64,000 nt of DNA. Source: a virus. Below are positions 9,602 through 60,200 of the stretch, piece by piece. Numbering within the stretch: the first letter of the stretch is position 1; each line of letters starts with the position of its first letter. The stretch is taken from IMG/VR virus record IMGVR_UViG_3300032073_005220, positions 93,015 through 157,014 of that record, one strand, 5' to 3'. The notes beneath the pieces were generated by a model, which saw only the letters and a program-made list of their open reading frames with translations, made no database searches and was not told the origin of the DNA. The translations under genes and the position numbers were made by a program.

Positions 9602-9991
9602 ATGAATATTACTATTTTAAGAGGAAACCTTGCTAGAGATCCAGAGTACAGAACCGTTAATACAAATGGCAAGCAGACAGGAGTAGTCAATTTTACTGTC
9701 GCTGTTTCTAGAGAATACACAAAAGCAAATGGAGAAAGAGATAAGATCGCTTCCTTTATTAATTGTGAAGCTTGGGATACTGGAGCTGAAATTATTAGCA
9801 ATTCTTTTAAGAAGGGCGACTTGGTTCTTGTAGAAGGATCTCTAAGGAATGATAGCTGGGAGAAGGACGGCGTTAAGCATAGCACTCTTAAGGTGAGAGT
9901 AAATAACTTTTCTAAGATTACTAAACTTAGCAGACAACAGAAGAAAGAAAAGGTCTCTTCTGGGCAGGAAAACGAACCCGTTAGCTTCTAA
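9602..9991 (+). CDS. ssb: Single-stranded DNA-binding protein
   Basis: 129 residues. The N-terminal OB fold matches bacterial SSB: ITILRGNLARDPEYR, VNFTVAVSREY, FINCEAWDTGAE, KGDLVLVEGSL. The C-terminal tail is short and ends EPVSF instead of the usual acidic DDDIPF tip, so contacts with partner proteins may be altered. It coats single-stranded DNA at the fork and during recombination. The gene has a private promoter at 9524-9551 and is followed by a long hairpin terminator, so it can be made at a level independent of the polymerase operon upstream and the glycosyltransferase run downstream. Such uncoupling suits a protein needed in stoichiometric amounts. Confidence 0.95.
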   Translation: MNITILRGNLARDPEYRTVNTNGKQTGVVNFTVAVSREYTKANGERDKIASFINCEAWDTGAEIISNSFKKGDLVLVEGSLRNDSWEKDGVKHSTLKVRVNNFSKITKLSRQQKKEKVSSGQENEPVSF

Positions 9992-10010
9992 ATAAAGAAT
10001 GCTTTTAAAA

Positions 10011-10070
10011 ATGGTGTCTGTATTGCTAATCTAAGACTCACTCCTTTAGTTATAGCAATGCAGGCGCCAT
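10011..10070 (+). terminator. Rho-independent-type terminator after ssb
   Basis: An 18-base stem, ATGGTGTCTGTATTGCTA at 10011-10028 against TAGCAATGCAGGCGCCAT at 10053-10070, pairs along its full length with three G-U pairs. It encloses a 24-base loop with a small inner CTAA/TTAG pairing, and is followed by ATTTTTAT. An A-rich stretch precedes the stem. It ends the ssb transcript; some readthrough into the next gene is likely because no separate promoter was found between 10071 and 10096. Confidence 0.8.
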
Positions 10071-10096
10071 ATTTTTATATTGAAAGTAATTAATAT

Positions 10097-11770
10097 ATGA
10101 CACGAAAACCTAAAATATTAATGGCTACAGAAGCTAGTTTTCTTAGTACTGGCTTTGCCAATTATACTAGAGAACTACTAACAAGACTTCACGCTACCAA
10201 TAAATATGAGATAGCTGAATTTTCTGCATACGGTCATGTGAACGACCCTAAAGACGTTGGCATATCATGGAAATACTACGCCAATGCTGTTAGACCCAAC
10301 GATAAAAGACATCAAGAGTATATGTCTAGCGCAGATAATCAATTTGGAAGATGGCGATTCGATCAAGTAGTGCTGGACTTTAAGCCAGATGCCGTTATAG
10401 ATATTAGAGACTATTGGATGAGTCATTATGAGCAATTCTCTTCATTTAGAGATTTTTTTCATTGGATATTAATGCCAACCGTTGACTCTGCTCCGCAACA
10501 GCAAACTTGGTTAGATACTTACGAATCTGCTAATGCAATATTCACATACTCTGATTTCGGAGCAAAAACTCTAAAGGAACAAACAAACGACAATATCAAT
10601 TATATTGACACTGTTTCTCCAGGCATAGACCTAAATACTTTTTTTCCTGAAACGGAAGAAAATAGAAAATTACTAAAACAACAAATGGGGATACCTGTAG
10701 ATGCGATCATAATTGGATCAGTAATGCGTAATCAAAAGAGAAAACTAATACCGGAACTTGTTAAATCTTTTAGGATAACATTAGACTATTACAGGGAAAA
10801 TAATCCAGAAATTGCAGACAAAATGTATCTGTACTTACATACCAGTTTTCCCGATGCTGGTTGGGATTTGCCAGAAATTCTTAAAGACGAGCAAGTTCTT
10901 AATAAAACAATAATTACATATAATTGCGAGCAATGCAACAATATATCTCCTAGTAATTTTGTAGGACCAAGAGCAATCTGTCCGTTCTGTCATAGCAAAA
11001 CTAGAATCATACCTTCTGTGGCTCAAGGTGTGAGCGTAGAAACATTACGTCGCATATATTCTGTCATGGACATATATGTTCAATATGCTATATGTGAAGG
11101 TTTCGGCATGCCTCAAGTAGAAGCGGCTGCTTGTGGTGTTCCCATCGCTACTGTTAATTATAGCGCTATGGAAGACGTTGTAGAGAAACTAGAAGCATAT
11201 CCTATATCTATAGGTTCGTATTTTAAAGAACTAGAGACAAAAGCTATTAGGGTATATCCTGACAACCAAAGTTTAAAAAATATTTTAATAGAATTTCTAA
11301 ACAAGACAGAAAAAGAAAAACAAGATATTAGAGCAAGAACAAGAGCATTAACAGAAAAGCATTATAATTGGGAAAACATAGCTAAAAAATGGCAGAATTA
11401 TTTAGACACTATTCCGTCTAGTGAAGCAAAATGGCAGGAACCTCCTAATTTTCTTGTTCCTATAGATCCAAATATCTGTAACGAAAATCCACAGAATATA
11501 AACCATATGGCATTAATGACCAGCATATGTATAAATAATTTAAAAAATATAAAATTGATATCTAGCAAGAGAATATTAAATATTTTACAAAATTTAGAAT
11601 ACGGTTATGTGCAGCAGGGACCTAATGTTAGATCCTATGGATTAAAACAAGCTGTAGAAGAACTCAATGTATATATACAAAATATTAACAACTCAGAAAA
11701 AGCCAGAACCTCTAACTATAAATCAGAAGAAGATTATATAAAATACTCTAAAATAAAGGCTTCTACATGA
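10097..11770 (+). CDS. GT4-like glycosyltransferase with inserted zinc ribbon
   Basis: 557 residues, a GT-B fold glycosyltransferase. The N-terminal acceptor domain has FLSTGFANYTREL, typical of the family. The donor domain carries a G-rich loop region (IIIGSVMRNQKRK) and the nucleotide-sugar motif CEGFGMPQVEAAACGVPI at about residues 332-349. Between these, C277, C280, C295 and C298 (CEQC...CPFC) form a zinc ribbon inserted in the Rossmann-like donor domain, unusual for GT4 enzymes. About 170 residues follow the catalytic domain and are not recognised. It would transfer a sugar from a nucleotide donor to an unknown acceptor (virion protein, DNA base or a host glycan). It overlaps the next gene by 4 bases and heads a run of eight genes. 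Confidence 0.85.
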   Translation: MTRKPKILMATEASFLSTGFANYTRELLTRLHATNKYEIAEFSAYGHVNDPKDVGISWKYYANAVRPNDKRHQEYMSSADNQFGRWRFDQVVLDFKPDAVIDIRDYWMSHYEQFSSFRDFFHWILMPTVDSAPQQQTWLDTYESANAIFTYSDFGAKTLKEQTNDNINYIDTVSPGIDLNTFFPETEENRKLLKQQMGIPVDAIIIGSVMRNQKRKLIPELVKSFRITLDYYRENNPEIADKMYLYLHTSFPDAGWDLPEILKDEQVLNKTIITYNCEQCNNISPSNFVGPRAICPFCHSKTRIIPSVAQGVSVETLRRIYSVMDIYVQYAICEGFGMPQVEAAACGVPIATVNYSAMEDVVEKLEAYPISIGSYFKELETKAIRVYPDNQSLKNILIEFLNKTEKEKQDIRARTRALTEKHYNWENIAKKWQNYLDTIPSSEAKWQEPPNFLVPIDPNICNENPQNINHMALMTSICINNLKNIKLISSKRILNILQNLEYGYVQQGPNVRSYGLKQAVEELNVYIQNINNSEKARTSNYKSEEDYIKYSKIKAST

Positions 11771-38121: not shown

Positions 38122-41100
38122 CTAAGGAATGATATATCTAGTTGGTATTACAAGTATGTTAAATTCATCGCTAGGATCAGCCTGTCTAGTCATAATGTCT
38201 AGTAAAATAGCACTAATATTTAACTTATAAGGATCATTAAGCAACGACTCAATCATATATAGACTATCTTCTGCCACATCAATATCCTCTATTCTGCCTT
38301 GAAGAACATCAACATCATCCAACCCTTCGTGTACAACAGAACTAGCGGTTCGTCCAATAAAAATATCTCGATTTTCCAAAGAGTTATTTATAATAGTAGT
38401 ATGATCAGGTGTTGCTGCAAGATTTAGGTAGTTATAATTAAACATGTCAATATAACTATAGGAAATATTTGCTTTTTTCTGCCTTAGGTCATAATTAAAC
38501 ATATCTATAAAACTAGTACTTATATTACCTATTCCTTCTTTTGGTTTGGATATATGTACATCCATATAAATAGCGCTATCATTCAATCTTTTAATAGCAG
38601 GAGGAAGATGGTTAAATACAGACAAATCTATATAAGAGCCAGCTAAAATTTCTCCTGTATGAGTAGATAGTGTTTCGACATCTGTTAGGGTGTTATGTAA
38701 TATTTCCGTATTCTGACCAGCAAACACCTCTAAATTTTTATGCTGACTATGTAATCTTTCTTCAGGTTCTGTTTTGAAGACACCTATAAGATCGTAAGAC
38801 AATAGATGTTTTTCTGATGGTTCGCTAAATATTAAATCCGTAATAGTAAAAGAATTAATATATTTGTTATTAGAAGGATCTTCATGAGCAATAAAGTCTT
38901 GTGATATTGCAGAAATAGTGAATCTTTGGTCTCTGCTTTCTGCCATTAAGTCCATAGAATTATTACTATAATATATATAATCTTTCCCTTTGTTCGCAAT
39001 AACATCAAATTGATGATAAGAGGTTCTAGTTAAATCTTTTTTAGGAACAAAAACTTCTGAAGACTGATGAGATACTACGGCTTTTTCTTGTGGAGATTCA
39101 GACAGAACTTCATGAGACAAGAGCGAATGCACAGTATCTACTCTTGGAGATGGAGGTGGCGTAGGAGCGCATTGATTTGGTCTATAGGCCAATCTTTCAA
39201 AACCTCCCATGAAATCATCAATAGCTGAATGATAGGAGAAAATAGTGGCCGGAATTTTTATAGGAGGGCCTTGATCTATTGCAAGAGGCTCTAGGTATAC
39301 TGTCATGGTGGGATAGTAATACGTGTGTGTTCCTACAGTACCGCCTAATGGGTATACTGTTGGATTATCTCCAGAGACTACAATCCAAAAAGCGAAAGCC
39401 CCTTGACCATCAAGAATAGTCATAGGGTGAGTAGCTGGTATATTAGTAAATTTATAGTACTTACCGTCAGTTAAACATAATTTTTGATTAGAATCAAGAG
39501 GATTAAAGTCTGTTTCTCCTGCTATGTCTGGAGTATTTTCCTCTGTTATATCAAAGACGTAATACTGTTGACCTCCTGGACTTCCTGAAATAGAAACCGG
39601 GATTTCTTCAGGCTGTATTGGCAAGCATACACACTCTCCAGTAAATGTATCGTCTTCTCCTGTTCTCGGACCTCCAGTACCTGGACCGGGGCCTGGACCT
39701 GGACCTGGACCGGGACCTGGGCCGGGGCCTGGACCGGGACCGGGGCCTGGCGGAGGTGGAGGTGGCGGCGGTCCTGGTGGCGGTCCTCCTCCTGCAGGTA
39801 GCTCGCATTTGTGTGTTGTGCATTTAGTAGTGGCGAATTGAGATATATAAAGTTCTCCCCTGCCAAAAGTATTATCATCTGTTTCTACAAAAAATCCGAA
39901 CTTATTAGTAGCAAAAACAATGATAGCAACTTCTTCTCCCTTGTCTGATTCTCCTGTATCTCTATTCTCTGGAGCATCAGAAAGAACAGTATAGCGGTCA
40001 TTCACGAAATAACCAGCTCTGTCATGTCTTTCTGCATCTAAAGTATTGTAAGCCCATTTGAAACATATGAGAGTGGACTCTGGAACTTCTATCTCAAATT
40101 TTGTTAAACCTTTTAGTCCTTCATGAGCATCAGAGTCTCCACCGTATAAAATAAAAGAATAAGGTGTTGTAGGATCATCAAACTCATCAGTAGTATCTAC
40201 ATAACCATCTGAATTCTCATTAGATAAAACCCAATTATCTATTAAATAATCACACTGGAAATAACAACACTCGTTAGTAGGCGTTGGAGTAGGAGTATAT
40301 GTTTGAGAAGGAGTAATTGATATTGTCGGAGTTTGAGTATTAGTAGGTGTTGCAGTGTGGGTTGGTGTTGGGGTGTGTGTTGGAGTATGGGTATTTGTTG
40401 GTGTGTGAGTTGGAGTGTGGGTTTGACTTTGGGTGATTGACGGAGTAAGACTGTGTGTAGGACTCTGACTTTGTGTGAGGCTTATTGTGGGAGTAAATGA
40501 AGGCGTTTGAGTATGACTAGGAGTCAGAGATGGTGTGTGAGTATTTGTGGGAGTATGTGTTGGAGTATGTGTTGGCGTATGAGTATTTGTAGGAGTATGA
40601 GTAGGAGTGTGTGTTGGGGTTGAAGTAATTGTTGGTGTTATTGTTGCCGTAGGAGTAATAGTCGGAGTTTGTGTAACTGTCTGAGTAGGAGTGGGAGAAT
40701 TCGCAGGTCTCGGTCTTGGTGGTGGAGGATCATCGTCGGGATTCAATGGGTCATTATCTGTGTCGGTACTTGGATTTCCCGGAGGAGGTGGCGGTGGTGG
40801 CGGAGGAGGACCAGCAGCTGCTGTTTCTCTACCTTCTGGATCATCTTCCCAAGGAGGTTTATTTGTGCAGATAGGGCCATACTCAAAACTTACAGCATTA
40901 GAAATACATTCTATGTCAGATCTTGGATAGGGTCTATTATATCTGTCTTCTAGGTAAATTTTATATCTTTGAATACTATATTGAGGATATATATCTGTTA
41001 GTATAAAACCTTCGTTCATTACTTGAAAAGCAGCAATTCTTGAATATTCACCGTTGTCGTAAGACGCTTCTATAATTATATGAGTGAAAACTCCTATTCT

Positions 41101-42627
41101 CGCATCTTTCCAATATAGTCTACCCTTTTTGGTGTTAGTACTTTCTTTGTAGCTATCTTTTATTTCGCAAGCGTGTAATTGGATAGCGCAAGGTTCACCA
41201 TCTGGATTTAAACCAGGAGGCGGCGGCGGAGGAGGAGGTCCGGGTGGCGGAGGCGGAGGCGGCGGTGGTCCCGGAGGTGGAGGAGGCGGAGGCGGAGGCG
41301 GTCCCGGCGGAGGAGGTGGCGGAGGAGGAGGAGGAGGAGGTCCCGGTGGAGGTGGAGGCGGAGGAGGTGGAGGTGGCGGAGGTGGTGGAGGCGGAGGTCC
41401 AGGCGGCGGAGGTGGAGGCGGAGGTGGAGGTGGCGGAGGAGGTCCAGGCGGAGGTGGAGGCGGAGGAGGTGGAGGCGGCGGAGGTGGTGGCGGAGGTGGA
41501 GGTCCAGGCGGTGGAGGTGGCGGAGGTGGAGGTGGCGGAGGAGGTGGTGGTCCCGGAGGCGGCGGCGGAGGAGGTCCAGGTGGAGGCGGTAAAGGATTTG
41601 TATCTCCATCAGGAGGTACGGAGGGATCAAAAGGTTCAGGATGAGCAAAATCTATATCAGAACCATTATCTATATCAACAGGATTAGAAACTGTTACAGT
41701 ACCCGTATCTCTATCAACATCTGTAATCACAGTTCCTGGAGGAATATTGTTATTAGGATCGTCAGAAGTAACAGGCATTCCTGGCTGTAATCCAGTAACA
41801 TCATCAAGTTTAATTTTATTATTAGAGCCATCTGGTGCGTCTTTATCCGTATCCTCTACTGCTTTTTTTGTAACTTTATCTCCAGGCTTAGGACAAGTAT
41901 CTTCAGCAGTAGGTGGACAGATAAAAAAGTTGGTATTACCTGTAAATTGAGCGTCAACACCGATAACAAAATTTTGAGGTTTTACAACAGGAGCTAGAAC
42001 AAATGCTGATCCAGGATTGCAAACATCAAAATCTAAAATATTTCCAGACGAACCAATAGATGTTACTATTAATGTTGCATCATTACTAACCCTATTATCT
42101 GTAACAGTAAATTTATCATTAATTTCATAATTACTACCCCCATTTATTAAAGTTACAGACTGCTTAGTGATTCCGCAAGTAGCAGGAGTAGGAGTTGGAG
42201 TCTGTGTTGGAGTAGGGGTTGGTGTTGGGGTATAAGAAGGCGTAGGAGAAGGAGTTGCTGTTGGAACATCTGAACTAAGAGGGGCTCCAGAAACAGAGCA
42301 TAAATCTCCACAAATAACAGTCAAATATCTTGCTGTATGTACTAGATTTGTAGTGTTGTCTTTGAGGGTTAATTTAAATACAACATTACAGGAATTATCA
42401 GCAGTTCTTAAAGAAATAACACGAGCATGACTAGTAATGTCTATAACATCCTTGTTTGCTCTTATATTTATTACAGTAGGATTTATAAACACCCTAGTTC
42501 TTTTAGGTGTTGCTTTAATGCTTTCTATATATGCAGTATATGAGTGGCGAGGTTTTAGTCTTATGTTTTCAAAAACTAATTTAAAGCCTTCTGCGCCGCA
42601 CTGTGTAGTTATATTTAATGTTGCCAT
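38122..42627 (-). CDS. Modular fibre-like protein with polyproline, Thr-Pro and Gly-Pro tracts
   Basis: 1,501 residues built from compact domains joined by low-complexity linkers. Residues 1-120 are a Cys-framed Ig-like domain (TQCGAEGFKLVFENI ... VICGDLC) shared with two neighbouring genes. A short Thr-Pro linker follows, then a small beta domain, then residues about 346-472 of almost pure proline punctuated by single glycines. A second beta domain and a Pro-rich patch precede a 140-residue Thr-Pro/Thr-His linker (about 643-786), a jelly-roll-like domain, a Gly-Pro repeat (about 953-985) and another beta domain. The last 320 residues are a degenerate repeat of roughly 20 residues. It is probably an extended virion fibre or stalk; no catalytic motif is seen. 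Confidence 0.75.
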   Translation of the reverse strand: MATLNITTQCGAEGFKLVFENIRLKPRHSYTAYIESIKATPKRTRVFINPTVINIRANKDVIDITSHARVISLRTADNSCNVVFKLTLKDNTTNLVHTARYLTVICGDLCSVSGAPLSSDVPTATPSPTPSYTPTPTPTPTQTPTPTPATCGITKQSVTLINGGSNYEINDKFTVTDNRVSNDATLIVTSIGSSGNILDFDVCNPGSAFVLAPVVKPQNFVIGVDAQFTGNTNFFICPPTAEDTCPKPGDKVTKKAVEDTDKDAPDGSNNKIKLDDVTGLQPGMPVTSDDPNNNIPPGTVITDVDRDTGTVTVSNPVDIDNGSDIDFAHPEPFDPSVPPDGDTNPLPPPPGPPPPPPPGPPPPPPPPPPPPPPPGPPPPPPPPPPPPPPPPPPPGPPPPPPPPPPPPPPGPPPPPPPPPPPPPPPPPPGPPPPPPPPPPPPGPPPPPPPPPPGPPPPPPPPPGPPPPPPPPGLNPDGEPCAIQLHACEIKDSYKESTNTKKGRLYWKDARIGVFTHIIIEASYDNGEYSRIAAFQVMNEGFILTDIYPQYSIQRYKIYLEDRYNRPYPRSDIECISNAVSFEYGPICTNKPPWEDDPEGRETAAAGPPPPPPPPPPGNPSTDTDNDPLNPDDDPPPPRPRPANSPTPTQTVTQTPTITPTATITPTITSTPTHTPTHTPTNTHTPTHTPTHTPTNTHTPSLTPSHTQTPSFTPTISLTQSQSPTHSLTPSITQSQTHTPTHTPTNTHTPTHTPTPTHTATPTNTQTPTISITPSQTYTPTPTPTNECCYFQCDYLIDNWVLSNENSDGYVDTTDEFDDPTTPYSFILYGGDSDAHEGLKGLTKFEIEVPESTLICFKWAYNTLDAERHDRAGYFVNDRYTVLSDAPENRDTGESDKGEEVAIIVFATNKFGFFVETDDNTFGRGELYISQFATTKCTTHKCELPAGGGPPPGPPPPPPPPGPGPGPGPGPGPGPGPGPGPGPGTGGPRTGEDDTFTGECVCLPIQPEEIPVSISGSPGGQQYYVFDITEENTPDIAGETDFNPLDSNQKLCLTDGKYYKFTNIPATHPMTILDGQGAFAFWIVVSGDNPTVYPLGGTVGTHTYYYPTMTVYLEPLAIDQGPPIKIPATIFSYHSAIDDFMGGFERLAYRPNQCAPTPPPSPRVDTVHSLLSHEVLSESPQEKAVVSHQSSEVFVPKKDLTRTSYHQFDVIANKGKDYIYYSNNSMDLMAESRDQRFTISAISQDFIAHEDPSNNKYINSFTITDLIFSEPSEKHLLSYDLIGVFKTEPEERLHSQHKNLEVFAGQNTEILHNTLTDVETLSTHTGEILAGSYIDLSVFNHLPPAIKRLNDSAIYMDVHISKPKEGIGNISTSFIDMFNYDLRQKKANISYSYIDMFNYNYLNLAATPDHTTIINNSLENRDIFIGRTASSVVHEGLDDVDVLQGRIEDIDVAEDSLYMIESLLNDPYKLNISAILLDIMTRQADPSDEFNILVIPTRYIIP
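38140..39150 (-). repeat. Degenerate ~20-residue protein repeat in the fibre C-terminus
   Basis: Residues about 1160-1496 contain a recurring short unit with a small residue, two variable positions, a hydrophobic, Asp or Glu, and two hydrophobics: SYIDLSVF, SFIDMFNY, SYIDMFNY, NRDIFIG, DVDVLQG, ILLDIMT, SMDLMAE, QDFIAHE, NLEVFAG. Spacing is about 18-26 residues. It predicts a repetitive beta structure. Confidence 0.6.
39680..39775 (-). repeat. Gly-Pro dipeptide tract
   Basis: The fibre protein reads PPPPGPGPGPGPG and onward for about 30 residues. On the + strand this appears as runs of CCTGGACCGGGG-type hexamers. Confidence 0.9.
40270..40710 (-). repeat. Thr-Pro/Thr-His linker tract
   Basis: About 145 residues of four- to six-residue units such as THTPTHTPTNTHTPT, with Ser and Gln variants. 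It is an extended stalk-like linker, and similar shorter tracts occur in the neighbouring genes at 44974 and 46161 and near the N-terminus of the same protein. Confidence 0.9.
41215..41595 (-). repeat. Polyproline tract with spaced single glycines
   Basis: About 126 residues of proline, broken by roughly ten single glycines. Proline runs are about 7 to 19 long. Codons mix CCT, CCG and CCA irregularly, so selection is on the protein, not on a DNA unit. The + strand is almost pure G with A, C or T at every third base. Confidence 0.95.
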
Positions 42628-42648: not shown

Positions 42649-44967
42649 CTATTTTTGCCACCACCACTGATTTTTGCTTATATTTCTCTCTGCTGTTTTT
42701 TTGTTAATTTTGTCTATAATTTTTTCTATGTCCTCTTGATAGATATTGTAATCTTGGGTGTCTGTTGACGACGGAGTAAATCCTGAATCGTCACTAGAAA
42801 CGTTATCATCAAGATCTTCTCCTATACCAGACTCATCTAGTCCGCTACCGCTACCAGAACCTGCATCTACGTCTCCAATTATAGAAGGAGGCTTCTGTAA
42901 AATATCTCCACAAGCTTCGTAGGTAGCATCAAAATATATACATTTACTGGGTGCTCCCTTTAAACTAAATTTAGCCAAGTCATTATTCAACGATCCAGAA
43001 ACGCCATACTCACTATAAAATTCATCATAAACAATAGCCCCAGTACCTACAATGCCTGTATCATACAAATTATCTACAGCAGTACCCGTAACATAAGCTA
43101 GTCCACTAGCTTGAGCTTGGTTGCTATTAGAAGGCCAACCAGCGCTAGGGTTGGGAATTACTCTTATAATATTAGGCTCGCTAGAGGTCTTATATCCCAA
43201 TTGTTTATGAGAATTACCATTAACAGCACAATAATAGTAAAGATCTGGAGCTCCAACAGGAACTACAATCTCTAATTGATTACTGGTAATAGTTACTCCT
43301 GTAGTATAATCATAACTACTATCTACAGTGCCAGCTACTCTTCCATCCGGTATAGTAGATAATCTAAAAACGTGTGTACCAATACTAGTATCACTCAAAT
43401 CAAACTGATAGGTATTTCCTTCGTACAAAGTTACGGAAGAGTTATAACTACCATCTATTTCAAATCTTGTACCAGCGGGAGTACTGTTATTCAAAGTAAC
43501 AGTTTTTGTAATGGTCTGTGTGGTCGCATTTACTCCACTGTTCTTTTTGCTTTGAGCAACTTGTCCTAGAATACCACAAACCTGAGGACTAGAAAAACTT
43601 GTTCCCCAACCAGCATTCATGCCAGAAACATTATCAACATAAGCCCCAGCACTATTCTGATTAAATGTAGCTCCTACCACGGCCGCTCCGGGGGCAAAAA
43701 TTGTAATGCCAGAACCGCAAACACTCCATTTGGATTTATAATTGTGATTACTAATAGATCCTACTGATATTGTTTCGTTAGTAACAGGGGTACTATCATC
43801 TTGTTCATTTTTAATAGATGCTGGAGTAGACGGTCTATTATAGTAATAACCGGATGGTGTGCCGCCATTAAATATTACCCTGTTGTTATAATTAGCTCCT
43901 CCGGGAAGATCAAGCTCAAAGCCAGAATTACCTCCAGCAGCAACCACTATCATACCACTTGCAATAAATTCGTCTATTACATCATTAGCAGCAACGTCTA
44001 TGGCTGGTATATGAGCTAATTCAATAGCTCCTTCTTTATAGTCGGGATCGCTTCCTCCTGTATACAATTGTCGTATAGCAAAACCTTTACTAGTATACCA
44101 ATTACAAAAATCTGCAAGACCTGAAACTTTTTGTTCTTTAGTATAAGAAGAAAAATTAGGATGTTCAGTATTAAAAACAGGTTTAGTATATTTGGTGCCT
44201 TGATGATATATCCCACTAACAATGGCAGAACTTTGATTTCTAACACTCCAACCAAAACTACAATTGACTATAGTAGGTCTATCGCCAGATTTAGATACAT
44301 GCCAATTTAAAATTTCTTGAGCATTATCAACAAAATCATAAAGATTAGTAGTAATAATTCTAGCATCACGAGACCAACCTTGAGTTTTGCCAGCAGCAAC
44401 AGAACCAACCAATGTGCCATGATTGTTTTGCAAGTAAGAGTCATTCGTGTTGTCTAAATTTTTAAACCTAAATACTCTACTATTATCATTGGTATTTGGA
44501 AATATATCTAAGAAACTATCTTCAGGAAAATTAGGATCAGAATCAGCTATAAACTCTGAGTGGTTTGGAGCTACAATACTGTCTATAATAACTATGTCTA
44601 TGTCTGGAGTAGGAGGAATTGTTATTGTGGCGTATTGATTTCCATAATACCTGGAATCTTGAGACAAAACATTAAAATGAAAACTAGGAGGCTCGTCATC
44701 TAATGGCTGGTCTATATCAAAAAGAGTTGGAAGAATATTCGGGTCTACTTTTACTATTTTTTTAATTCTTGGGTCTTTACTCAAAGAGTTTACTTCTGAT
44801 TCAGATAGCTCATACCTCAAAATTCGACTTTTAGGATCTGCAACAATAGAACGGCAAGATCTTTGTGGTATCACAGAATTTTGCAACTGCACCTGAGATT
44901 GCATTTCTCTTATGAAAGCGTCTTTGTCTTTGTACTGTTTTAAGATTATATTATATTGTATGTCCAT
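42649..44967 (-). CDS. Subtilisin-family (S8) serine protease in the fibre gene cluster
   Basis: 772 residues. Residues 1-80 resemble an I9-type propeptide (YNIILKQY...; SLSKDPRIKKIVKVDPN). The catalytic triad is intact: D129 in IVIIDS, H183 in NNHGTLVGSVAAG, S457 in GWGTSFSSPQ, with the oxyanion N347 in VVAAGGNSG. No signal peptide is present. After the protease, residues 481-595 form a beta domain (THVFRLST, DYTTGVT, PDLYYYC) like a module of aquatic phage fibres, and the C-terminus is an acidic Gly-Ser-rich segment ending with an aromatic and basic tail (KNQWWWQK). It could mature virion proteins, trim the neighbouring fibres or cut host surface proteins. The setting among tail genes suggests it is a virion protein. 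Confidence 0.9.
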   Translation of the reverse strand: MDIQYNIILKQYKDKDAFIREMQSQVQLQNSVIPQRSCRSIVADPKSRILRYELSESEVNSLSKDPRIKKIVKVDPNILPTLFDIDQPLDDEPPSFHFNVLSQDSRYYGNQYATITIPPTPDIDIVIIDSIVAPNHSEFIADSDPNFPEDSFLDIFPNTNDNSRVFRFKNLDNTNDSYLQNNHGTLVGSVAAGKTQGWSRDARIITTNLYDFVDNAQEILNWHVSKSGDRPTIVNCSFGWSVRNQSSAIVSGIYHQGTKYTKPVFNTEHPNFSSYTKEQKVSGLADFCNWYTSKGFAIRQLYTGGSDPDYKEGAIELAHIPAIDVAANDVIDEFIASGMIVVAAGGNSGFELDLPGGANYNNRVIFNGGTPSGYYYNRPSTPASIKNEQDDSTPVTNETISVGSISNHNYKSKWSVCGSGITIFAPGAAVVGATFNQNSAGAYVDNVSGMNAGWGTSFSSPQVCGILGQVAQSKKNSGVNATTQTITKTVTLNNSTPAGTRFEIDGSYNSSVTLYEGNTYQFDLSDTSIGTHVFRLSTIPDGRVAGTVDSSYDYTTGVTITSNQLEIVVPVGAPDLYYYCAVNGNSHKQLGYKTSSEPNIIRVIPNPSAGWPSNSNQAQASGLAYVTGTAVDNLYDTGIVGTGAIVYDEFYSEYGVSGSLNNDLAKFSLKGAPSKCIYFDATYEACGDILQKPPSIIGDVDAGSGSGSGLDESGIGEDLDDNVSSDDSGFTPSSTDTQDYNIYQEDIEKIIDKINKKTAERNISKNQWWWQK

Positions 44968-44973
44968 AAAAAA

Positions 44974-45591
44974 TTATCCGTATTGAGAAACTATTCTGAA
45001 TAAACCCCAGTTCTTATATTCTTGATATTGAGTACTATCACTCTCAATAGTCACTGCATTATTATAATTATCATAAGAATTTGAGCAAACTAAAGATGGG
45101 CTAGGAGTAGGAGTCATAGTGTGTGTTGGCGTCACTGTTGGCGTAGGAGTAAGAGTAGCCGTAACGCTAGGAGTAGGAGTAGGAAATCTAGAGGCTACAA
45201 ATTCAAATCTTGGCTTTCCATCCTCAGTGCATGTGTCACCGCATTGTATAACACCAATATTCTCATAGATAAATCTACTAGAACTATCATAAACTCTAAC
45301 GCCTATAACATTCTTAGTACTATTATCATAATTAAAATTAGTAACAGATCTAAAAAAAGTGGATACGGTATGATTATTGCTTTGTTCTACAGGAGTAATT
45401 GTATAAGTTTGTGGTTTAAATTCAATAATAGGAGATGAAGGTATTGTGCTATACCAATCAAAAAACACTGTATATGTTTGATGTGGACGCATAGGTACGC
45501 CACTGAAATTAATTAGGACGCCTTCATTACAACAATGAGCATTAGCAAAGTTAAATTCTTGTGGTCTATTAGTATTTTTGCTATAAGGCAT
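44974..45591 (-). CDS. Small fibre-type protein: Cys-framed Ig-like domain plus Thr-Pro linker
   Basis: 205 residues. Residues 15-130 form a beta domain framed by cysteines (AHCCNEGVLINFSGV at the start, VIQCGDTC at the end) that also occurs in the genes at 45610 and 38122. It is followed by a linker of about 30 residues (FPTPTPSVTATLTPTPTV) and a 35-residue C-terminal part (LVCSNSYDNYNNAVTIES). No enzyme motif is present. It ends six bases before the protease gene begins. Likely an accessory fibre or adhesin-like tail protein. Confidence 0.7.
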   Translation of the reverse strand: MPYSKNTNRPQEFNFANAHCCNEGVLINFSGVPMRPHQTYTVFFDWYSTIPSSPIIEFKPQTYTITPVEQSNNHTVSTFFRSVTNFNYDNSTKNVIGVRVYDSSSRFIYENIGVIQCGDTCTEDGKPRFEFVASRFPTPTPSVTATLTPTPTVTPTHTMTPTPSPSLVCSNSYDNYNNAVTIESDSTQYQEYKNWGLFRIVSQYG

Positions 45592-48252: not shown

Positions 48253-51200
48253 TTAGGCGTAAAAGCTTAATCCTCCATCGGTATCGCTTTGTATTTTGGA
48301 TTGTACATCTCCTACTTTTTTATCAGCATAATTTTCACCTTGCTGACTTCCCATAGCTACTGCCCTTCCTAAACTTTGACTATCTAAACCAACACTACCA
48401 TTTACGTTTACATTATTGTTAATGTCAATGCCATTACTAGGTACGGCACTGGCCAACTGTTGAGCTGATGATCCTATGCTTGAACTAGCTTCTAATATTG
48501 CTGGTCCTACGCTATTAAAAGCACTTAAAACATCATCAACCCACGATGGCCTCTCCATACTAACATTATTTACACCACCAGAGCCAGCGCTTTGAACCTG
48601 TTGACCACTAATTGGTCCTCCACCTTCTTGCAGTCTTTGTGGCTGTACATAACCACCACTAGCCATGTATCTTACTAATCCTCCAGAGTTAAATTGGCCA
48701 CTATTCATAGATTCTAGCAACGGTCTATTTTGACTAGTAGCTAGTCTGTTCATTACGAATTCACCAGGAGTTAGCATGGCTGGAACAGTGTCACTACCAC
48801 TAGACTGAGCTTGAATTAAAGCTCCGTTGCTAGCATAAACAATACCTCCACGAGCCTTCTTATCAGGATCTACTATAGGAAGAGTATCAGGGTCAACAGA
48901 TTGATCTGTCACATCTGTAGTCCGTAAAAATTCCTCAATATTATCAGCACCAATGAGCGCCGTAGTACCCCCTCCCACAAACACGCCGCCGCCCACGAGA
49001 GCAGATTTTCTTGGGTGATTCTTTATAAGTCCTAACATTGTAAATCCGCCTTGGCCTGCAGGTGCCTGTTGCGGACCATATACAGCTGGCGTACCAGCTG
49101 TAGGTGTTGGAACTGAAGGAGTTTGACGCACTACTACGTTTGGTTTTAGTGCTCCTGTGGTTGGGTCTATTGCTTTTCCTGTAGCTGGATCGATGATTAT
49201 TCCTGACACCGGATCTTTTGTTGCGTTCTGCAGACGTCTATCTGTAGCAAGTGAATCTTCAAGTCGTCCCAAGGCATTTGGCCCTTGCGGCTTTGGTGGA
49301 TTTGCTGCTTCGGAAACAATGGTTGGAATAAAATCGTCAGACGCAGGATCAATAGGAGGCTTAGGCGGTCTTGGAGGAGTTACTCCCAAGGCACTGTCTA
49401 CTTGTGTCAAAACTTTTTGTTGCGCCGCCGATAACTCTTCTCCTATAACGGTTTTGAAAAATGCCGGATATCCATCTTCATCTATTATCTTTTGAAGTCT
49501 AGTCAAGTCTTCTGCTGCTCCTGATTCTATAAATTCCGCCAATCGTTTTTCCATTCCTAATTTTCTAGCCATTGCTATCGCTTTAGGAGCCATTTTAGGA
49601 GCGACAGACGAAAAAGCTTTAAAAGCACTTCCTATTGCAGGCAAGCCCATACCGATCGCTGCGTCAGTTAATCCTGCAGCAGCACGAGCATCATGGCCAT
49701 AATTACCCTGGGCTGCTTCTGCCTGCATTGTTGATAGCCCCTCACCAAGCAGAACAAGATTAGGATCATTTAAATCTGGCCATTTACCATTTTGTGCTTG
49801 AGATATAATACCCTGCCAAGCATTAAAAAAGTCTTTTCTATAGTTTGTGTCCATTGAGCCAAGACCTTGTCCATAAATAGGACCACTTAGTATATCAAAA
49901 GCACCTCCTGCTGCCCATACTGCATAACCAGGAAGTGATGCAAGCTCAGCTTGAAATGAACTTATATCTTTAGCAAACTTAGCATTTCTTCTTTCTATCT
50001 CTTCCTTGCTCATTAGAAGAGGATCTCCTCCAATAGCATCTCGATGCATTTGTCTTTGTCTCTTTTCTTCTTCGAAACTAGTCGATCCAAATATTGCGTT
50101 GTCATTTAAAACTCGACGAAAACCTTCTGTAAAATTCGCACTGGAATTATACGCTTCGTGACCAAAAGCACCTAAGAAATAAGTCAAAGGATCTGGACTA
50201 TCAAGCCATCTAGTGCCATCTAGAGGATCTTGAATACCTGGTATATCTGTCAATTTTCCATGACCTTGCATGTTTAATTGAGCAAGTCTAGCAGCTTTTT
50301 CTGGAGACAAAGCAGGCTTAGGATTTGTTAATTCTTCAATCCTAGCTAATCTTTCTCTCTCAGATTCTGAATCTGCCATCTTATTATCTTCGTGTCTTAG
50401 CATGTCAAAGAGAGGAATAATCGTATTTCCCGCTGTTATTAATGCTGCTCTTTCAAGTGTTCCTCCTATAGTTGTTGCGTATTCTGCCTGAGTTTCTGCT
50501 TCTTTAGCTTCGGCTACTAATTTCTGGTATTCTAGTTCGTCTTTTGCTTTGTCTGAATTCTCTTTGTCTCTTTTGTTTCTCTTCAATACTTCAGGATCAA
50601 CACCCCGACCAACTCCTAATGCTTTTCTAAATACAGGATTATCTAAAAGAGCTTCATCTTGAAATTCAGGTGATGTATGATATTTATATGTGCTTTCATC
50701 AAACGCATTAAATTCTGGTTTTTCAAATGAACTGAATAGTTGTTGGTATCTACTTAATGCAGAATTCTCTTCTCCTAAACCACTTACATAGTTATCAAAT
50801 GCTTCTGCGCGAGTTACTCCAAATTGATCACTAATGTCTGTTTGAGAACCTTCTATTCTTCTAGTTAATTCATCTTCTAAAACTCTTCTAAAAGCAGGGT
50901 CTGCACTAAAAGCCTTTTGCATTTCTAAGCTATTATCGGTCTCATCGTTAAAGAAATCATCTATTAATTTCTTTCTTGCCTTTTGCTCTTCCTGTAATTC
51001 TCTAAATCTTTTATCTTTTTTCGCTTTATCTACATGCATACTATCAAAATATTCACGCTCTTCAGGAAATGTATTGTTTATGTATCTTTGATCCCATGAT
51101 AAGGGTGGTTTATTTGTGTCTTGTTCAAGCATCTCATATGGAGTTAATAAACTTCTTTCTTCGGCTTTTTCGTCTCTCTTAGTTTTTCTTTGTTGCTTAA

Positions 51201-54200
51201 CTGCTTGATTGGCAGTATAATCATCAGAGATATCAACTTTATTACCTTGTTTATCGTATGTCTCAATACCTCCACCGAGCATTTGTGCAGCGCTTGATGT
51301 TGAGATATCAACTTTTGTTTTGGAAAAATCTATTTTATTGCCATTAGCATCATATAGATCAACCCTATTTATACCTGTTGGATCATACTCTTTTTTCTTA
51401 TCTCCAAATCTTTCTTCCCATTCTCTATCTTCTATTTTTTTTCTGAAAGCAGTACGGAATACGCTGTCGCCATCTTTGCCTGTTGATAGTTGATTACCGT
51501 TAGCGTCATAAACTTTAAAAGGTTTTTCTCCTTGATTAAATTGAATAGAATCTCCTTCTGCTTCAATAGTCTTTTTTCTATATTCTTGTTCTGTTAAAGG
51601 TCTGAATCCTCCTTGTCCATCGGACACATACAAATCTTTAAAAGTTCCTGTACCTCCCTCTTCAATAGCCTTTCGCCTATCTTTGGTATCTCTACGTCTT
51701 TTTTCTTCTCTTGCTTCTTTAGCTTTTCTCTTATTTTCTAGCTCTGCTTCTCTAGCTGCTTTTTCTGCTTTTGCTCTGTCTGCTGCTGCAGCCTCTCTAG
51801 CTTCTCTTCCAGCTTCCCATTCTGCAGCTTCTCTTTTTTCTTTTCTCTCTTTTGCTTTATATTTATTTATTTCTATGGTTGACATATTGGCAAACATCGC
51901 ATTGCGTTCAGCATTAGGTGACTGCACGTTTGGTCTAACATTTTCTTGATAATTTTCAATATAAAATTGTTGAGCCGCTAGTCCGGCAGCATTAGCTTCG
52001 GCCAAACTGCCATTGTTTTTTAAAACTTCGCTTCTTGCTTGAAGTCTTTTCCTTTCGGCTTCCTTTAAAGTTTTAATATCTTCCCTTCGTAAAGCTCTAT
52101 TCTCTACTGCTTGATATTCATTCATGCGAGCATTAGCTCTTTTAACTTCTTGATTATAAAGAGTATTATCTCCTGGTTTAGATGAGTTGTTTGATCCAAG
52201 GCTGTGATCAAGAAATTCTGCAAGATCAACAGAACCAGAACCATCTGAATCATAAAAAAGATCATCGGCAAACTCCTCTTGTTCTAATCTTCCATTTCTA
52301 TTTTTATCTAGAGCAACAAAGCGTTGTATTATAGCATTTCTACTTGCCTGACCCCCTTCTTCAAGATAAACAACGCCGCCTTGACTATATCCTCCAACAC
52401 CATTATTAATAGCCTTAAGTAATGGCAGATTGTTTTGCGTAGCTTTCTTATTTATAACAAACTCACCAGGAGTCAACATAGCAGGAACAGTGTCAGTACC
52501 TTGAGGTTGGAAATTAACTAATTGACCCTGACTAGCATAAATCATTCCTCCTGTTTGAAGTCCAACAGGATCTACAGGCTTCTCTTTTGGGCCTCCAATG
52601 CTTTTGTAATAATCAAGACTAGGTAAAGATCCTACTTTAAATAAAGCTCCCAGCTCTTCCATACCTTTTTTTGCTTTTTTATAAATATCTCCATAACCAG
52701 CAAAATTGTATAGTTCTGTTAATCTTGTATTATAGTCTGGAGTAGGAGGATCTCTATCATACAGATAGTCAACACCCTTCCATGGAACTATTTTCTTTCG
52801 ATCTTTTTTCTTTTTGTCTTTATTACCAGCAGGCTGTTCTTCGAACCCTTCTGGAGGTTGAGAGATATCAGTATTAGCACCAGGCTGGCCTCCAAACCAC
52901 AGCTTAACATCATCCATACTTTGTAAAGTATTTGCCATCATTTGTTGACTATACAAAGGTCTGCCATTAGGTCCGTCAGTAGCTCCCATAAATCTTGATT
53001 TGATAGCATTAATTAAAATTTTTCTATCTGTAATTTCATCAAATTTATTATAGGGATTAAATGCCATTTCGACTACTTGTTGAAGATTTTCAAGTGTTGG
53101 AGGCGACTTACTGTCAGTAACCTTTCCATCAGAAGTTGGTGTAGCGAAAGTATCTCCATCTCCTATAATAGTTGATAAATCTAACTTATCATCAGCACTA
53201 AGTTGCCCTTGCTCTCCACTCAAAAATCTGTTAGCTCTTTTACCTCCTCCTATGGCCCTAAACATAGTTAGAGTTTGTTGTTGAAGAGCTCTCCAATCAA
53301 AGTTAGGTTTATCTAGATCTTCTAATTTTAAATATCTAGTTATTGCATTAGTATTTGATTCAGCTATTTGACCAAATGCTGCGCCAGCACCGTATGACAA
53401 AACTTCCGCATTGTTATACAGGTCATAGGCATTTAAATTTGGAAAATTGCCTTCGGTTACTATTTTATTAATATTTGTATAGTAGCTGTCTAGTTGACCA
53501 GATAAAATACTGCTAAGTTGTTTAATTTGGTCTTTATTTGTTAAATTTTGTAAAGGTACTCCGAATTGAGCTCCAAAATTATAAGGAGCACCAGCGCCGA
53601 ATAAACTAAATGCAGTATTAGCAATAGTCTCAAAAGCTGGTTTAAGATATTTCATGTTAGAAAGATTAGAAGTAAACTCCTTAGTATTAGCGACCTCGCT
53701 ACCCGCCTTACTTCGGGCCGTATTCTGTCCCTTTTCTAATTCTTCTGCTACATAATCTAAATACTCTGTAAAAGATGTCTTTTTAGCATTAGTAGGTACG
53801 TTTGTAGCTGTAGCAGGATCTAAAAATGTTTGACCATATTTTTTCAAGAAAGACAGTGGCTCTAAACCTTTATTGCTTCCAGATATAGTAGTACTCATAA
53901 CATTAGCAGCAGCTGCTCTACTTCCTGCAGCAGCCGCTATTCCTTGTTCTAATACTTTTCCTAAATATTTTTTAACATCAGTATTTTGAAATTGTTTTTT
54001 AATAAAATTTGGCTTAACTACGGCGTCACTATTAAAAGCCTGTTTGTTAGCAAGTAGACTTATGTCTGCTCCGGCGTCGAAAGTTTTGTAAGGATTGGAC
54101 ACATGATCAATGGCATTTAATACATATCCTGGTCCTCCTAAAACATCTGATAATAATTTTTCAGGATTTGAAGGAGCTCCCAAATTAGAATCCCACAATT

Positions 54201-57200
54201 GACCATCGGTTTTAGTATAAGATAAGAAGTAAGGTATGTCGACCTTTTGTTGTTTTCCGTGAACCGGTATAGTTAAATCAAAAGCTCCTTTTTTCAGAGG
54301 TAATCGCTCTCCTTTTATTTTGGATATTTTGTCTTTTTCTTCTTGTTGTTTTTTGTTAAAATCAGTGTCTAGATCGGATGCATTAATATCACTCGTCCAA
54401 CCAAAATCTTTGGTTCCGATGATCCTTCCTGCAGCATCAATTTGAGACAGATTAATAGGTTTTCTTGTGTAGTAAGAACTATTATCTTTTGATGTCTGTC
54501 CTCTGTCAAACATATTTTTTAAAGTCGTCCCAAACTCATTTTCAAATGCTAGATTTCCTCCACCATAAACATTAATAGATCCATCGTTTGCATCTAAACT
54601 ACCTAAGTTTTTAAACTCTCCGTTAGGGAAATTGTAAGAGAGAAAAGGACTATTAGAATTATATAACTGATTTAGGCGATTAATAATGTCATTTTGTGAA
54701 GTGTCTGCTACAAAAGCAGCATCTCTCATAGCCAAAGTATCTTTTAAGAGCTTTCTTTGATCTTTGAGTCTGTTTAGACCTTCGGTATATTTATCAAAAG
54801 TTTTAATAGCGACGTTACTATTGTCTACGTCCGATCCTATGAAAACTGAAGAACCAATTTTCTTAGACTTTCCAGCTCCAAATTCAGCTATATTCTTATC
54901 TGAATCAGAGTACCCCAATAAGGCAGAAGCAAACATACTAGGTAAATAACCAGTACTTCCTTGCTGAAATAAGCCCAAACCAGCATCAGGATCCGCTATT
55001 CTGGAAACTAAATTACTTAGAGTTACCATAGCAATATCGTTGAAAAAACCTTGCCTAAATTCTGTCTCAATACTAGGATTAGCAACAGTAAGATCTTGTG
55101 TATTTGTAGGTACTTTTAGTTTTTTGCCACTCACCCCTGTATATTGTAAATAAGAACCAACTTTTTTAGGAGTCTTGATATTTAAGTATTCAGGTTTTAT
55201 TGCAGCATAGGCTTGCTTAAGCTCTTTCAATCCCTTTCTGTCTAATTTTTCTGATCTTTCTGGCCAGTGGAAAAAAGGAAAGGATAATACTTCTGGAGTT
55301 CCTATATTTGCAGTACGTTCTCCTACCTTGGTACTAATACCAGAACTATCTTTAGCAAATGATATTTTGGCTCCAGTTAAAATAGAACCTTGATCAGATA
55401 TACTAAGAATTTTTTCACTATTGTAATAAGGAATCTCTTGAGATCCAACTCTTCGATTATCTTTGTCTAATCCAACATTATAGTCTCCACCAATTTCAAT
55501 CTTGGCGCGATCGTCTCCAAAAGTAACCTTTCCGTTAGCAATTTTGTGTCCTACAGTAAGTCCTTTATAGCCTGTGTATATTTTAGGTGTTGGAGCACCA
55601 TCAAATTCATCTTTGGTTTTGGGTGTGACAGCAGTCTCTTTCCATATATCGTCCGCGTTAGGACTACTACCTACTACATGACCCCCAGTAGCATAGTAAG
55701 ATACTCCTCCTCCTTTAGAGTAGCCATTATTAATTGCTTCTAGTATAGGTCTATGTTTTTGTGTGGCAGATCTATTTATTACAAATTCGCCTGGAGTAAG
55801 CATAGCAGGAACTGTATCCGTACCTTTAGGACTAAAGTCTATGGCGGTTCCTTGACTAGCATAAATAATACCACCCGCAGCTTTGTTGTCAGGTTGTTGT
55901 CCTGCCGTTCTAATTCCATCTACCATATCCTGAATTTGTTTTTCATCAAATTTAATAGTAACACTTTCTAACGCTTCCTTAATTGCTTCAGAAGTGTCTT
56001 TGGCTATTTTTGAAGCCAGTTCATCATTAAGTCTAGCAAGTTGCACATTTGCTTGAGCTTGTACATTTATAGCTTTTTGATAAGTAGCAATAGCTTTAGC
56101 CGTAGCCGGATCTAGTGATGGATTCCTCATAGCATCAATAACATCACTAAGCATAGGAGTCATTCCTACGCCACTTTCTCTCAACATGGTTTCAAGAGCA
56201 CTAGCTCTTAGATTATTTGATTGTTGATTATCTCCTAAAAATGGACTAATTTCTTTTAGTAAAGATAAAGCATTACCTCTTTGATCTGCGAATGCTTTTT
56301 GTGCTTCTCTTTGAGCATCTCTAGGATTAGCTCCGCTTCTCAGAGCTTTTCTATAAGCTTTTTGAGCTGCTGTACTCTGTTGAATAGATATGGATTGCCC
56401 GCTAATATATCTTTGTAAATCAGCAAAAGAATTATTTAAATCTTTCAATTGTTCTGGAGTACTAGTTACTAATTTTTCTATAAAAGTAACTTTTCCTGCT
56501 TGATCTTGCTGAGCTTTTTGTATTTTATTTAATGCTGCTGAAGCCAAATTAGAATCATTGGCTAAACTTTCAAGTGCCGCTCTAGTTTCATTTATCTGAA
56601 AGTTTGTTTTAGCTAATTCTTGAGTGGTTTTAATTACGGCCGCAGAAGCGTCAGGAGCATTAATATTCTCTCCGGCAAAATCTCTATCTGCTTGTTGACG
56701 TTCTCTTCTAGATTCTAATAATCTTAGCGAATTAGTAATATCTACAGGATCAGTAGTTCCCCCTGTTCTAGACCTAATATCTCTGTCTCGTTCTCTCTCC
56801 AAAGTATTTAGATCTACATCCTGACCAAGAGCGCTAGCTAAATTAATTTGAGCATCAAACAATATGCTGGTTGCTTTTCTTAGACGATTTGCAGATTCCA
56901 ATTGAATCTCTGTCATTTTATTGATAGCACTAGCATAAGAATTTAATGATGCTTGCCATTGATTTAAGGCATTAATAGCGGTTTTTCTAGCTTGAGCAGA
57001 TGTGCCTATTAAATCGTTTAGTCCTGATATTTTTTCCGTTAACTCTTGTAAAGATATAGATCCTTTGTCTGTTTCGTTAGTAATATCTCCTACAGCTTTA
57101 GCAATTTCTCTAGCTAGTTTAGACGTTAAAGAAGCAGGAAGACCTAGATTCTTTAATTCCTCTTGAACAGCTCTGCTGACTCTACCTTTTGCTACTTCTG

Positions 57201-60200
57201 GATTATCTCCTTCATTACTCAAAACATTATTAATAGTTTTAAGTAAACTATCTTCTAGGGCTGGCCCAAGCTGTAATAAACCCCTAACAAGGCCAGAATC
57301 TCCACCAAATCTATCAGCAGCCATGCCACTAGCTCTACTGAAATCAGCATTACTGTATCCTAAAGGATTTTCCAAAATATTTGCGTCACGAGATGAGAAA
57401 TTTCCTATACTAGCAGAACCACGCAGGGAGTTTATTGTTAGTTCTAAATTTTTATCGAATTCACCTAAATTAAAATTAGCTCTAGAAATATTTTGATCCA
57501 TTGTGCTAAATAATCTTTTAAAACTTAAAGAAAGTTCTTTAGATATCTTATTAAGATCATTAAGCGATTTGGTATTAATACTAATATTAATTTGTTCTCT
57601 AGCTCTTTCAGCAGCAGCTTGTTGTATGAATTCACCCCTTTGAGCAGGGTCGGTGATATTCTGTAACGCTTTTTGTACAGAAAGGTCAGCTAAGGCTAGA
57701 TTTTCAGAAAATTTAAGTAAAGTGGGATCTGATACCAGTTCTTCATAAGTTTTTCCTGAGTCAACTAAAGATTGTATAAATTGTCTAGTTGCTTGAGTAG
57801 TCTCAGCAAATAACTTAGCGTTCTCTCTAGCTATTCTGGGTCGTTCTTTATCAAAATTTGATTCTCTCTTACTAGAAAACATTAAACTTTCTAGAAAAGG
57901 TATAACTCCTTGATTGTTTAAGATATCTCCTCTCTGTTTAGCTTCTTCGGAGGAATTAAGAATATCAAATATATTAAGTAATCCAATTTTTGTATTTTGT
58001 TCATTACTAGCCGCCAACTTTCTTGTCTCGCCGCTAATAGTGCTTAATTCCGCTTGAACTACATCTAAAGCGGCAGCATTTGTAGCATTTTTAGATAATT
58101 CTTCAAAAGCTTTATTTATTTTTTCTGCTGACTCTTCAATTTTGCTTCTACTAAGTTTGTCCGCAAACTCGATTGCTGCGTTTTTTGCATCAGCAAATGC
58201 CTTGACCATAGATATTGCGCCAGCAGCAACACCAGCAATAGGACCGGCAATACTGCCTACAGCAAGACCAGTAGAAATTGCTCCTGCTCCTCCTTGAACT
58301 AATGCCTGACTAGATGCTCCGCTAGCACTAGTAGGTTCTCCTCCAGCAAAAAAGTCTGTTATCATAGGAAGAGCTAAACTAGCAGCAATACTAGCTTGAG
58401 TTCCACCCATACCTTTAAGTCTGGCGCCAAAACCTTCTCCTGTAGGTAGTCCTTTGGACTTAGCTAATTGTGTCGTAATTTTTCGTCTTTCCTGAATTTC
58501 TTGATTTGCTAATTTTTTAGCTTCTGCTGCTGTATATTTTGCAACACCGGCCGTCGTTTTTTGAGATAAAAGCTGTTGCGTTCTAAGCTTTCGCATTCTA
58601 GCATAAAAAGCTTTGGATTGATTAGCATCCATTTCAGTTTCAGATATATATCTTTGAATATCAGAACCTTGAATACCCGACGCTTTAAGATCAGCGCCAG
58701 AAACCCCTGTTACCGATCTGGTTGCGTCAGAAAAAGCCTGGTCTCTAATTCCGGCAATATCTTCAGCTGTTAAATTATTTCCTTGGGTTGCTGTAGCTTT
58801 TTTTATACGTGCGTGAGCTAAATGTTCTGCTTGATTTAAAATATCTGCTTGTCGAGAAGCAGTATTTGCTCCACCTTTGGTAAAAGCCTTCTCTAGTCCT
58901 TGTCTTTTGGTAATGTTATCTTGTGCTTCAGTTTGAAGATTTATTAGATTTTTAGTCAAAATACCTATCTGAGTAGATGATGCTCCTGCTGCTTTAGCTT
59001 TTTGCAAGTCTGCTTTGGCAGCATCAATTGCTGTTTCATAACTGACTCTACCTTGATTAGCAACTATACCAGAAGTTGCTTTCGATTGAAGTCCCAGCTC
59101 TTCTAGAACAGATACAATTTCTTCTAGTCCTTGTCTGGCGGTATCGGGAATAGCTACAGTAGATCGTTCAATAACGTCTGGTTTCAGAGGCACTCCTCCT
59201 CCATTAGAAAAACCAAACCCAACAGCTCCGCCTTTATTAAAGCCTTGAAGTTTGTCTGCTTTATTAAGAGAATTGAGTTTAAAGGACCCTAGACTTTTGG
59301 CAGCTTTTCTATTTATTACAAATTCACCAGGAGTCAGTAAAGCCGGTACTGTGTCCTTGACGCTACCACCACTGGCCATCATTTCATACTTGCCATCAAA
59401 TGGGATTGAATATCCTTTTTCTATTGCGTCTTTCTTGCTTTTGACACCAAAATTTGCTTTTAATTGATTTAAAGAATAACTCTGTCCCTTTACTGGCTGA
59501 GCGGCAGCAGTAGCGGCGGCAGCCTGTTGTTTTTTATTTGTAGGCAATAAATAAGCACTTCTGTCATTTCTAATTTCACCTACAATTTCATTTAGAGCTT
59601 TTGCTTCTAGAAATCTGGGCTCTGAGGCTTTCTTTGAAGCCTTAGCATCAACCCATTGGTCTGGCAGATTTGGAAAATTATCTTTAAGATTAGGACCAAG
59701 GCCTTTAGGAAAATCAAAATTTGTTCCAGGCTTACGTTCGAGATATTTACCTGTGATACCAGTTAATACATCTTCAAACAAATTACCAATAGCTGCATCG
59801 TTTACACCCTGAAGAAAATCTTGTTTATTTTTTTTATTGACTGCTGTAAAGTTCATGCCTAGATCTGAAGATAATCTACCTCCGGCTAAATTTACAGCTT
59901 TAACCAACCCATCGTCAAGAGCATCCTTAAATTTCTTATTAGTGTCCTTGCTTAAGCCTTCTCTAGTAGTACTAATATTCTTGGCAAAATTTCTTGTAAA
60001 AATTTTAGGATTTAACTCTTCTGTTGCTGGTTTCTTTGTTGTTCCTTCTATGCCAAGAGATTTTCTTATCTTTCCAAGACTAATGGGTATCTCAGTTGTT
60101 TTTGGTGATGCGGTCTCGAAAACAGCTGCTCCAACATTTACTGCTCCTCCTTGAAGCTGTTTTATAAAACCTCCACCAGCAAATTTTTGTACTTTTCCTC

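Follow-up and report, generated by a model that had tools for sequence, protein, structure and literature searches.

Genomic setting of the gene

The DNA analysed here (the window, 64,000 nucleotides) covers positions 93015-157014 of a 157,014-base virus record. Its minus strand carries a run of genes separated mostly by short gaps, in which the gene for a 4561-residue tape measure protein (48253-61938; PhageMin_Tail, 1.1e-21, and PHROG tape measure families), the first gene of the operon considered, is followed by three smaller genes, a subtilase gene (42649-44967) and several large genes without assignment. The plus-strand part holds replication genes, for example those for a DnaB-like helicase, a primase and a DNA polymerase. 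An earlier sequence-only reading had placed the subtilase among tail fibre genes; this holds in so far as the gene follows the tape measure gene in a tail operon, but most of its neighbours match no known family.

Directly upstream of the subtilase gene, at the position usually taken by a partner gene (see below), lies a gene for a 205-residue protein with a Cys-containing N-terminal domain and a TPTP stalk (44974-45591, minus strand). The downstream gene (38122-42627, minus strand) encodes a Pro-rich modular protein of 1501 residues. The N-terminal domains of the two are related (22% identity, 3e-5) and lead into TPTP stalks, to which the 1501-residue protein adds long Pro and Gly-Pro runs. 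The 205-residue protein found no match in phage records, and searches with a 693-residue gene product and the tape measure end recovered no close relatives of the window phage. Within the tape measure protein, 'DTVPAMLTPGEFVI' repeats occur several times and residues 3201-3224 weakly match an EF-hand. Outside the window, the same genome encodes a second, stand-alone subtilase of 307 residues that has no prodomain (G000:C1:36389-37060; L001:1366-2286, plus strand; PF00082, 1.4e-55). This enzyme is of the intracellular type, its nearest phage relatives being large Bacillus phage proteases such as that of SP-15 (38% identity), and has no close relationship with the subtilase of the tail operon.

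A complete subtilase with an intact active site

The subtilase gene (42649-44967, minus strand) begins with ATG and encodes 772 residues. Pfam Peptidase_S8 matches residues 125-490 (E=1.3e-15; score 58 bits, cut-off 21.8) and PHROG_9158 matches at 5.9e-29. A leave-one-out profile, built from ten cyanophage relatives with the window protein excluded, scores the protein at 116.9 bits and matches residues 1-74 (prodomain) and 122-486 (catalytic domain) separately. The S8 catalytic domain, counted as far as the serine helix (residues 121-475; 43543-44607, minus strand), is marked both by PF00082 and by this profile (6.2e-33). In an AlphaFold model that is mostly confident at residues 1-80 and 121-475 and poor past 475, the protein adopts a predicted subtilisin fold; the highest-ranking PDB structures are subtilases, and among these are several pro-forms, for example ProN-Tk-SP (2.8e-12) and unprocessed pro-subtilisin E (1.7e-10). 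A PDB search by sequence gave no match. Together, the Pfam, PHROG_9158, leave-one-out and PDB fold matches rule out chance as the source of the S8 call.

The motifs of peptidase family S8 are all present: catalytic Asp129 (44581-44583), His183 in HGT (44419-44421) and Ser457 in GTSFSSP (43597-43599), with the oxyanion-hole Asn347 (43927-43929), all on the minus strand and exactly where the sequence-only reading had put them. In a family alignment of 86 sequences, Asp and His are each found in 86/86 members, Asn in 85/86 and Ser in 84/86, the Ser exceptions being one truncated and one misaligned copy. Conservation of Ser is somewhat favoured by the search, because one scan pattern spanned the SPQVCG behind the serine; Asp, His and Asn are unaffected. 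Practically every full-length member examined retains the triad and Asn, and because the active site is intact in more than 80 members that are 24-30% identical to the window protein, catalytic activity appears to be under selection. The open reading frame is confirmed as a complete subtilase by sequence and predicted fold, and proteolysis is the predicted activity.

One feature of the window copy stands apart. The residue after Ser457 is Phe, where most relatives have Met (M458 is nearly invariant in the family), and the substitution may lower activity. It would also suit a protein that reuses the protease fold to bind a host-surface target with little or no cutting, and virion adhesins do often reuse enzyme folds. 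We nevertheless consider such a binding role improbable, since retention of Asp, His, Asn and Ser across so divergent a family is expected only if catalysis matters.

Upstream of the catalytic domain, residues 1-80 (44728-44967, minus strand) form a putative I9-type prodomain, with a profile match over residues 1-74 (i-Evalue 2.1e-7), a confident alpha/beta model and a predicted strand-helix-strand-strand-helix-strand order at residues 4-73, which gives a prodomain fold in front of the S8 domain. Pfam Inhibitor_I9 (PF05922) does not match the window protein and reaches only E=0.15 in a single relative. Despite this, we assign the prodomain fold to the N-terminal 80 residues, because the first PDB matches of the model include pro-forms, with the best of these aligned over at least 500 columns. 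The fold and order of prodomain and catalytic domain are those of the family S8 proteins pro-subtilisin E and ProN-Tk-SP, although these are cellular enzymes with about 12-15% identity to the window protein. The I9-like propeptide proposed earlier is therefore borne out as a predicted fold, as is the absence of a signal peptide, there being no hydrophobic N-terminal stretch.

A cupredoxin module behind the catalytic serine

Residues 484-604 (43156-43518, minus strand) make up a module with the motif YYYC that is 40-49% identical to its closest counterparts among many phage modules. It had been described as a YYYC-type fibre module. In a model of this stretch (pLDDT 79.5, pTM 0.77), the PDB matches are almost all cupredoxins, among them a nitrite reductase domain, pseudoazurin, plastocyanin and rusticyanin; as modelled, the YYYC module is a cupredoxin beta-sandwich, which replaces the fibre repeat. 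The fold is shared with plastocyanin and pseudoazurin (PF00127), and of their type 1 copper ligands the window copy retains H532 and C580. By contrast, its C-x2-H-x2-M motif is replaced by CAVNGNSHKQL. With the second His displaced, the Met missing and only H532 and C580 remaining, copper binding by the window copy is doubtful. Other phage cupredoxin modules keep the ligand order H...C-x2-H-x2-M, and aquatic phages commonly have modules with an intact H-C-H-M set in their virion and tail fibre proteins (loci L109-L159). In Synechococcus phage ACG-2014h, a single protein of 974 residues (L005:12001-14922) joins a subtilase, an alpha/beta-hydrolase-like part (weak Pfam matches to AXE1, BD-FAE and DLH) and a cupredoxin.

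The position of the module varies among relatives. It occupies the C-terminus in ACG-2014e, S-H9-1 and AG-345-P14 and sits between the last S8 helix and a conserved tail at two further loci (L063 and L078); in the window protein it starts directly after the serine helix. The earlier description had the module simply following the enzyme; it instead lies immediately behind the helix of the catalytic serine and possibly precedes the protease domain's final helix. The segment after the cupredoxin (residues 605-680; 42928-43155, minus strand) may hold this displaced helix, for which residues 618-641 are a candidate (weak profile match AQASGLAYVTGTAVDNLYDTG, 1.9 bits); nesting of the cupredoxin within the S8 domain is only weakly supported. 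A helix at residues 478-489 in the first model, considered as the completion of the S8 domain, was discounted, because the better module model and a 42%-identical Pelagibacter phage module (aligned to residues 483-604) assign this stretch to the start of the cupredoxin. The protein closes with an acidic Ser/Gly linker and a C-terminal helix (42652-42870, minus strand; helix at residues 737-760 in the model) ending in QWWWQK, a terminus shared by none of the operon's other proteins.

A widespread phage family

The sequence-only reading had proposed a search for the gene in related phages, and relatives were found in many cyanophages (Kyanoviridae) and in IMG/VR. Searches by tblastn recovered Synechococcus phages, one Kyanoviridae single-cell record and others, to which a second query added P-SSM2, P-SSM5 and S-SCSM1; the subtilase of jumbo phage Atu_ph07 was found by fold match. 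In IMG/VR, the window protein alone as query gave no matches and only an alignment query reached the family, with at least 548 related stretches. Bacterial and archaeal genomes yielded only six members, three of which, from aquatic metagenome-assembled genomes (L103-L105), we take to be phage DNA because they have the same upstream partner as the phage loci; one of them (L105) also has a phage baseplate gene of the gp6 type, with the subtilase just downstream of it. On one viral contig, two family subtilases lie side by side (L017:7170-9875 and 9880-11523), the first of 902 residues.

Cyanophage records annotate the family as 'subtilisin-like serine protease' or 'peptidase' (S-WAM2 AOV61888, S-RSM4, S-H38, S-CREM1 and the ACG-2014 phages; T4-GC 292 in P-SSM2; PHROG_9158). 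The Kyanoviridae proteins resemble the window protein in their prodomain, S8 domain, triad, lack of a signal peptide and setting among baseplate and fibre genes; in the named phages, the genes beside it are annotated as tail fibre, 'tail pin' or baseplate. Some members also carry the cupredoxin module, C-terminal there but behind the serine helix in the window protein. The window protein differs in its longer C-terminal part and in lacking the conserved upstream partner, and its identity is 23-27% to the named Kyanoviridae phages and 24-30% across IMG/VR members. As it matches the PHROG_9158/T4-GC 292 profile over prodomain and catalytic domain, the window gene is, by sequence, a divergent new member of a widespread phage family.

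A conserved upstream partner

Across the family, the gene just upstream of the subtilase falls into one cluster in 77 of 89 loci, compared with 16 of 79 for the commonest downstream cluster. With a profile of the partner's C-terminal domain, 81 of 88 loci have the domain immediately upstream and only five occurrences lie elsewhere; some loci are near-identical, and the set contains 67 distinct partner tails. The domain has about 110 residues (SYALLKIxTSxAAWVTLYTD...DPxPGSGVIAEV...; PHROG_9627/15343; loci L003-L105), and the gap between partner gene and subtilase gene is mostly 2-5 nucleotides. The N-terminal parts of the partners vary in length and type. They match T4_gp9_10_N, the domain by which T4 gp9 and gp10 dock to the baseplate, in S-H38 (9e-8, above the Pfam cut-off) and at L105 (4.8e-5, just under it), and 26 of 88 partners have an NDGTGD-type motif of the gp9/gp10 N-terminal kind. 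In a smaller group of loci, a PA14/GLEYA protein takes the partner position, and in P-SSM2 and S-SCSM1 the partner ends in a C-terminal domain of yet another, third type. The partner is thus common, not universal, and does not strictly define the PHROG_9158/T4-GC 292 family.

From these sequences the partner is inferred to be a fibre that docks to the baseplate and holds the protease at its end, with the C-terminal domain of about 110 residues as a candidate docking domain or substrate. The profile of this domain finds no match in the window (E=0.66 at best), so that the mounting model does not transfer simply to the window phage.

The second role of the domain, as substrate, belongs to the main rival of surface digestion, fibre maturation, in which the enzyme would act during assembly on the upstream stalk or fibre, on the large modular neighbours or on itself, and then stay in the virion. 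Phage maturation proteases do exist, as is known for heads. The strict pairing with one upstream protein, whose conserved C-terminal domain could be cut, and the very large neighbouring proteins in the window fit such a role. Against it, the partner domain is conserved to its last residues, though it may still be cut, and family members occur in fusion or pairing with modules typical of surface contact (lectin-like, PA14/GLEYA and hydrolase-like). We regard maturation as possible but unlikely.

Evidence for a place in the virion

An indication of location comes from S-SCSM1 gp144, a relative of 1411 residues with a prodomain-like N-terminus, the same triad and, as read from its sequence, a lectin-like C-terminal part. 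It is like the window protein in prodomain, triad and tail or baseplate setting (viral structure match, 9.6e-23), and unlike it in length, in the lectin-like part and in its different partner domain; the second viral fold match was a concanavalin A-like protein. The gp144 record bears the note '(virion protein)'. In the S-SCSM1 study, virion mass spectrometry detected 45 proteins (PMC9602691), in approximate numerical agreement with the 47 features that carry a virion tag in the record. The tagged entries include NMNAT and D-Ala-D-Ala carboxypeptidase, both named as detected in the paper, whereas the tag is missing from the terminase genes and from part of the predicted structural genes. Because of the near-equal count, the tagged named proteins and the untagged terminase genes, the tags most likely mark proteins detected by mass spectrometry. 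The accessible portions of the proteome papers on S-CREM1, S-CREM2 and S-SZBM1 do not name the subtilase. By analogy, a virion location of the window subtilase is backed by the tagged S-SCSM1 relative, and the conserved partner gene for a putative baseplate fibre lends it further support.

This bears on whether the enzyme could instead be a cytosolic protease of host takeover that is merely located among tail genes. The window subtilase has no signal peptide, and the intracellular-type, stand-alone subtilase in the same genome indicates that phage subtilases can have roles away from the tail. Such a role is nonetheless very improbable here, given the constant placement beside baseplate or fibre genes across the family, the virion tag in S-SCSM1 and the cupredoxin module, which is common to tail fibre and virion proteins.

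Proposed function

Sequence, model and analogy with relatives give what we judge to be an even chance that the protein is an active, tail-borne subtilase, at the baseplate or a fibre end, that acts outside the host cell. It would be a late product, expressed together with the tail genes and kept unsecreted in the cytoplasm, with the I9-type prodomain serving as folding chaperone and inhibitor and probably being self-cleaved. The protease would then be mounted on the tail, in most relatives on the upstream fibre-like protein through its conserved C-terminal domain; in the window phage, another stalk protein may take over this role. At adsorption, the exposed enzyme might cut proteins of the host surface (S-layer, outer membrane or sheath) and so clear a path or loosen attachment, and the cupredoxin would have a structural or a binding role.

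Modules that act on surfaces accompany the protease in some relatives, namely an alpha/beta-hydrolase (a weak match), the lectin-like part of gp144 and a PA14/GLEYA partner. Because such lectin-like, PA14/GLEYA and, possibly, hydrolase modules are joined to the protease in relatives, we favour surface digestion above fibre maturation, and by this analogy host surface proteins are probably the substrate; a protease beside fibres could equally cut fibres, which speaks against a surface-only reading.

Discussion

Phage tails carry enzymes that cut sugars and cell walls; tail-borne proteases have, to our knowledge, hardly been studied. A search of the open full-text literature, with subscription papers and preprints largely outside its scope, found no functional or experimental study of phage tail subtilases. 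Genes for S8 peptidases in T4-like cyanophages were mentioned in 2010 (PMC3037559).

Of more interest than the window gene itself are the conserved partner cassette and the identity of the cupredoxin. Taken as a whole, we put forward only tentatively, as something rather less than an even bet, a widespread entry device in which a baseplate-docked fibre would hold, by its C-terminal domain, a protease that activates itself and, at adsorption, digests proteins of the host surface; this joint reading includes a swappable mount, a copper-binding cupredoxin in some lineages and a different stalk in the window phage. The two-gene cassette, a fibre with its C-terminal domain and a protease, provides a concrete model that is testable in cultured phages.
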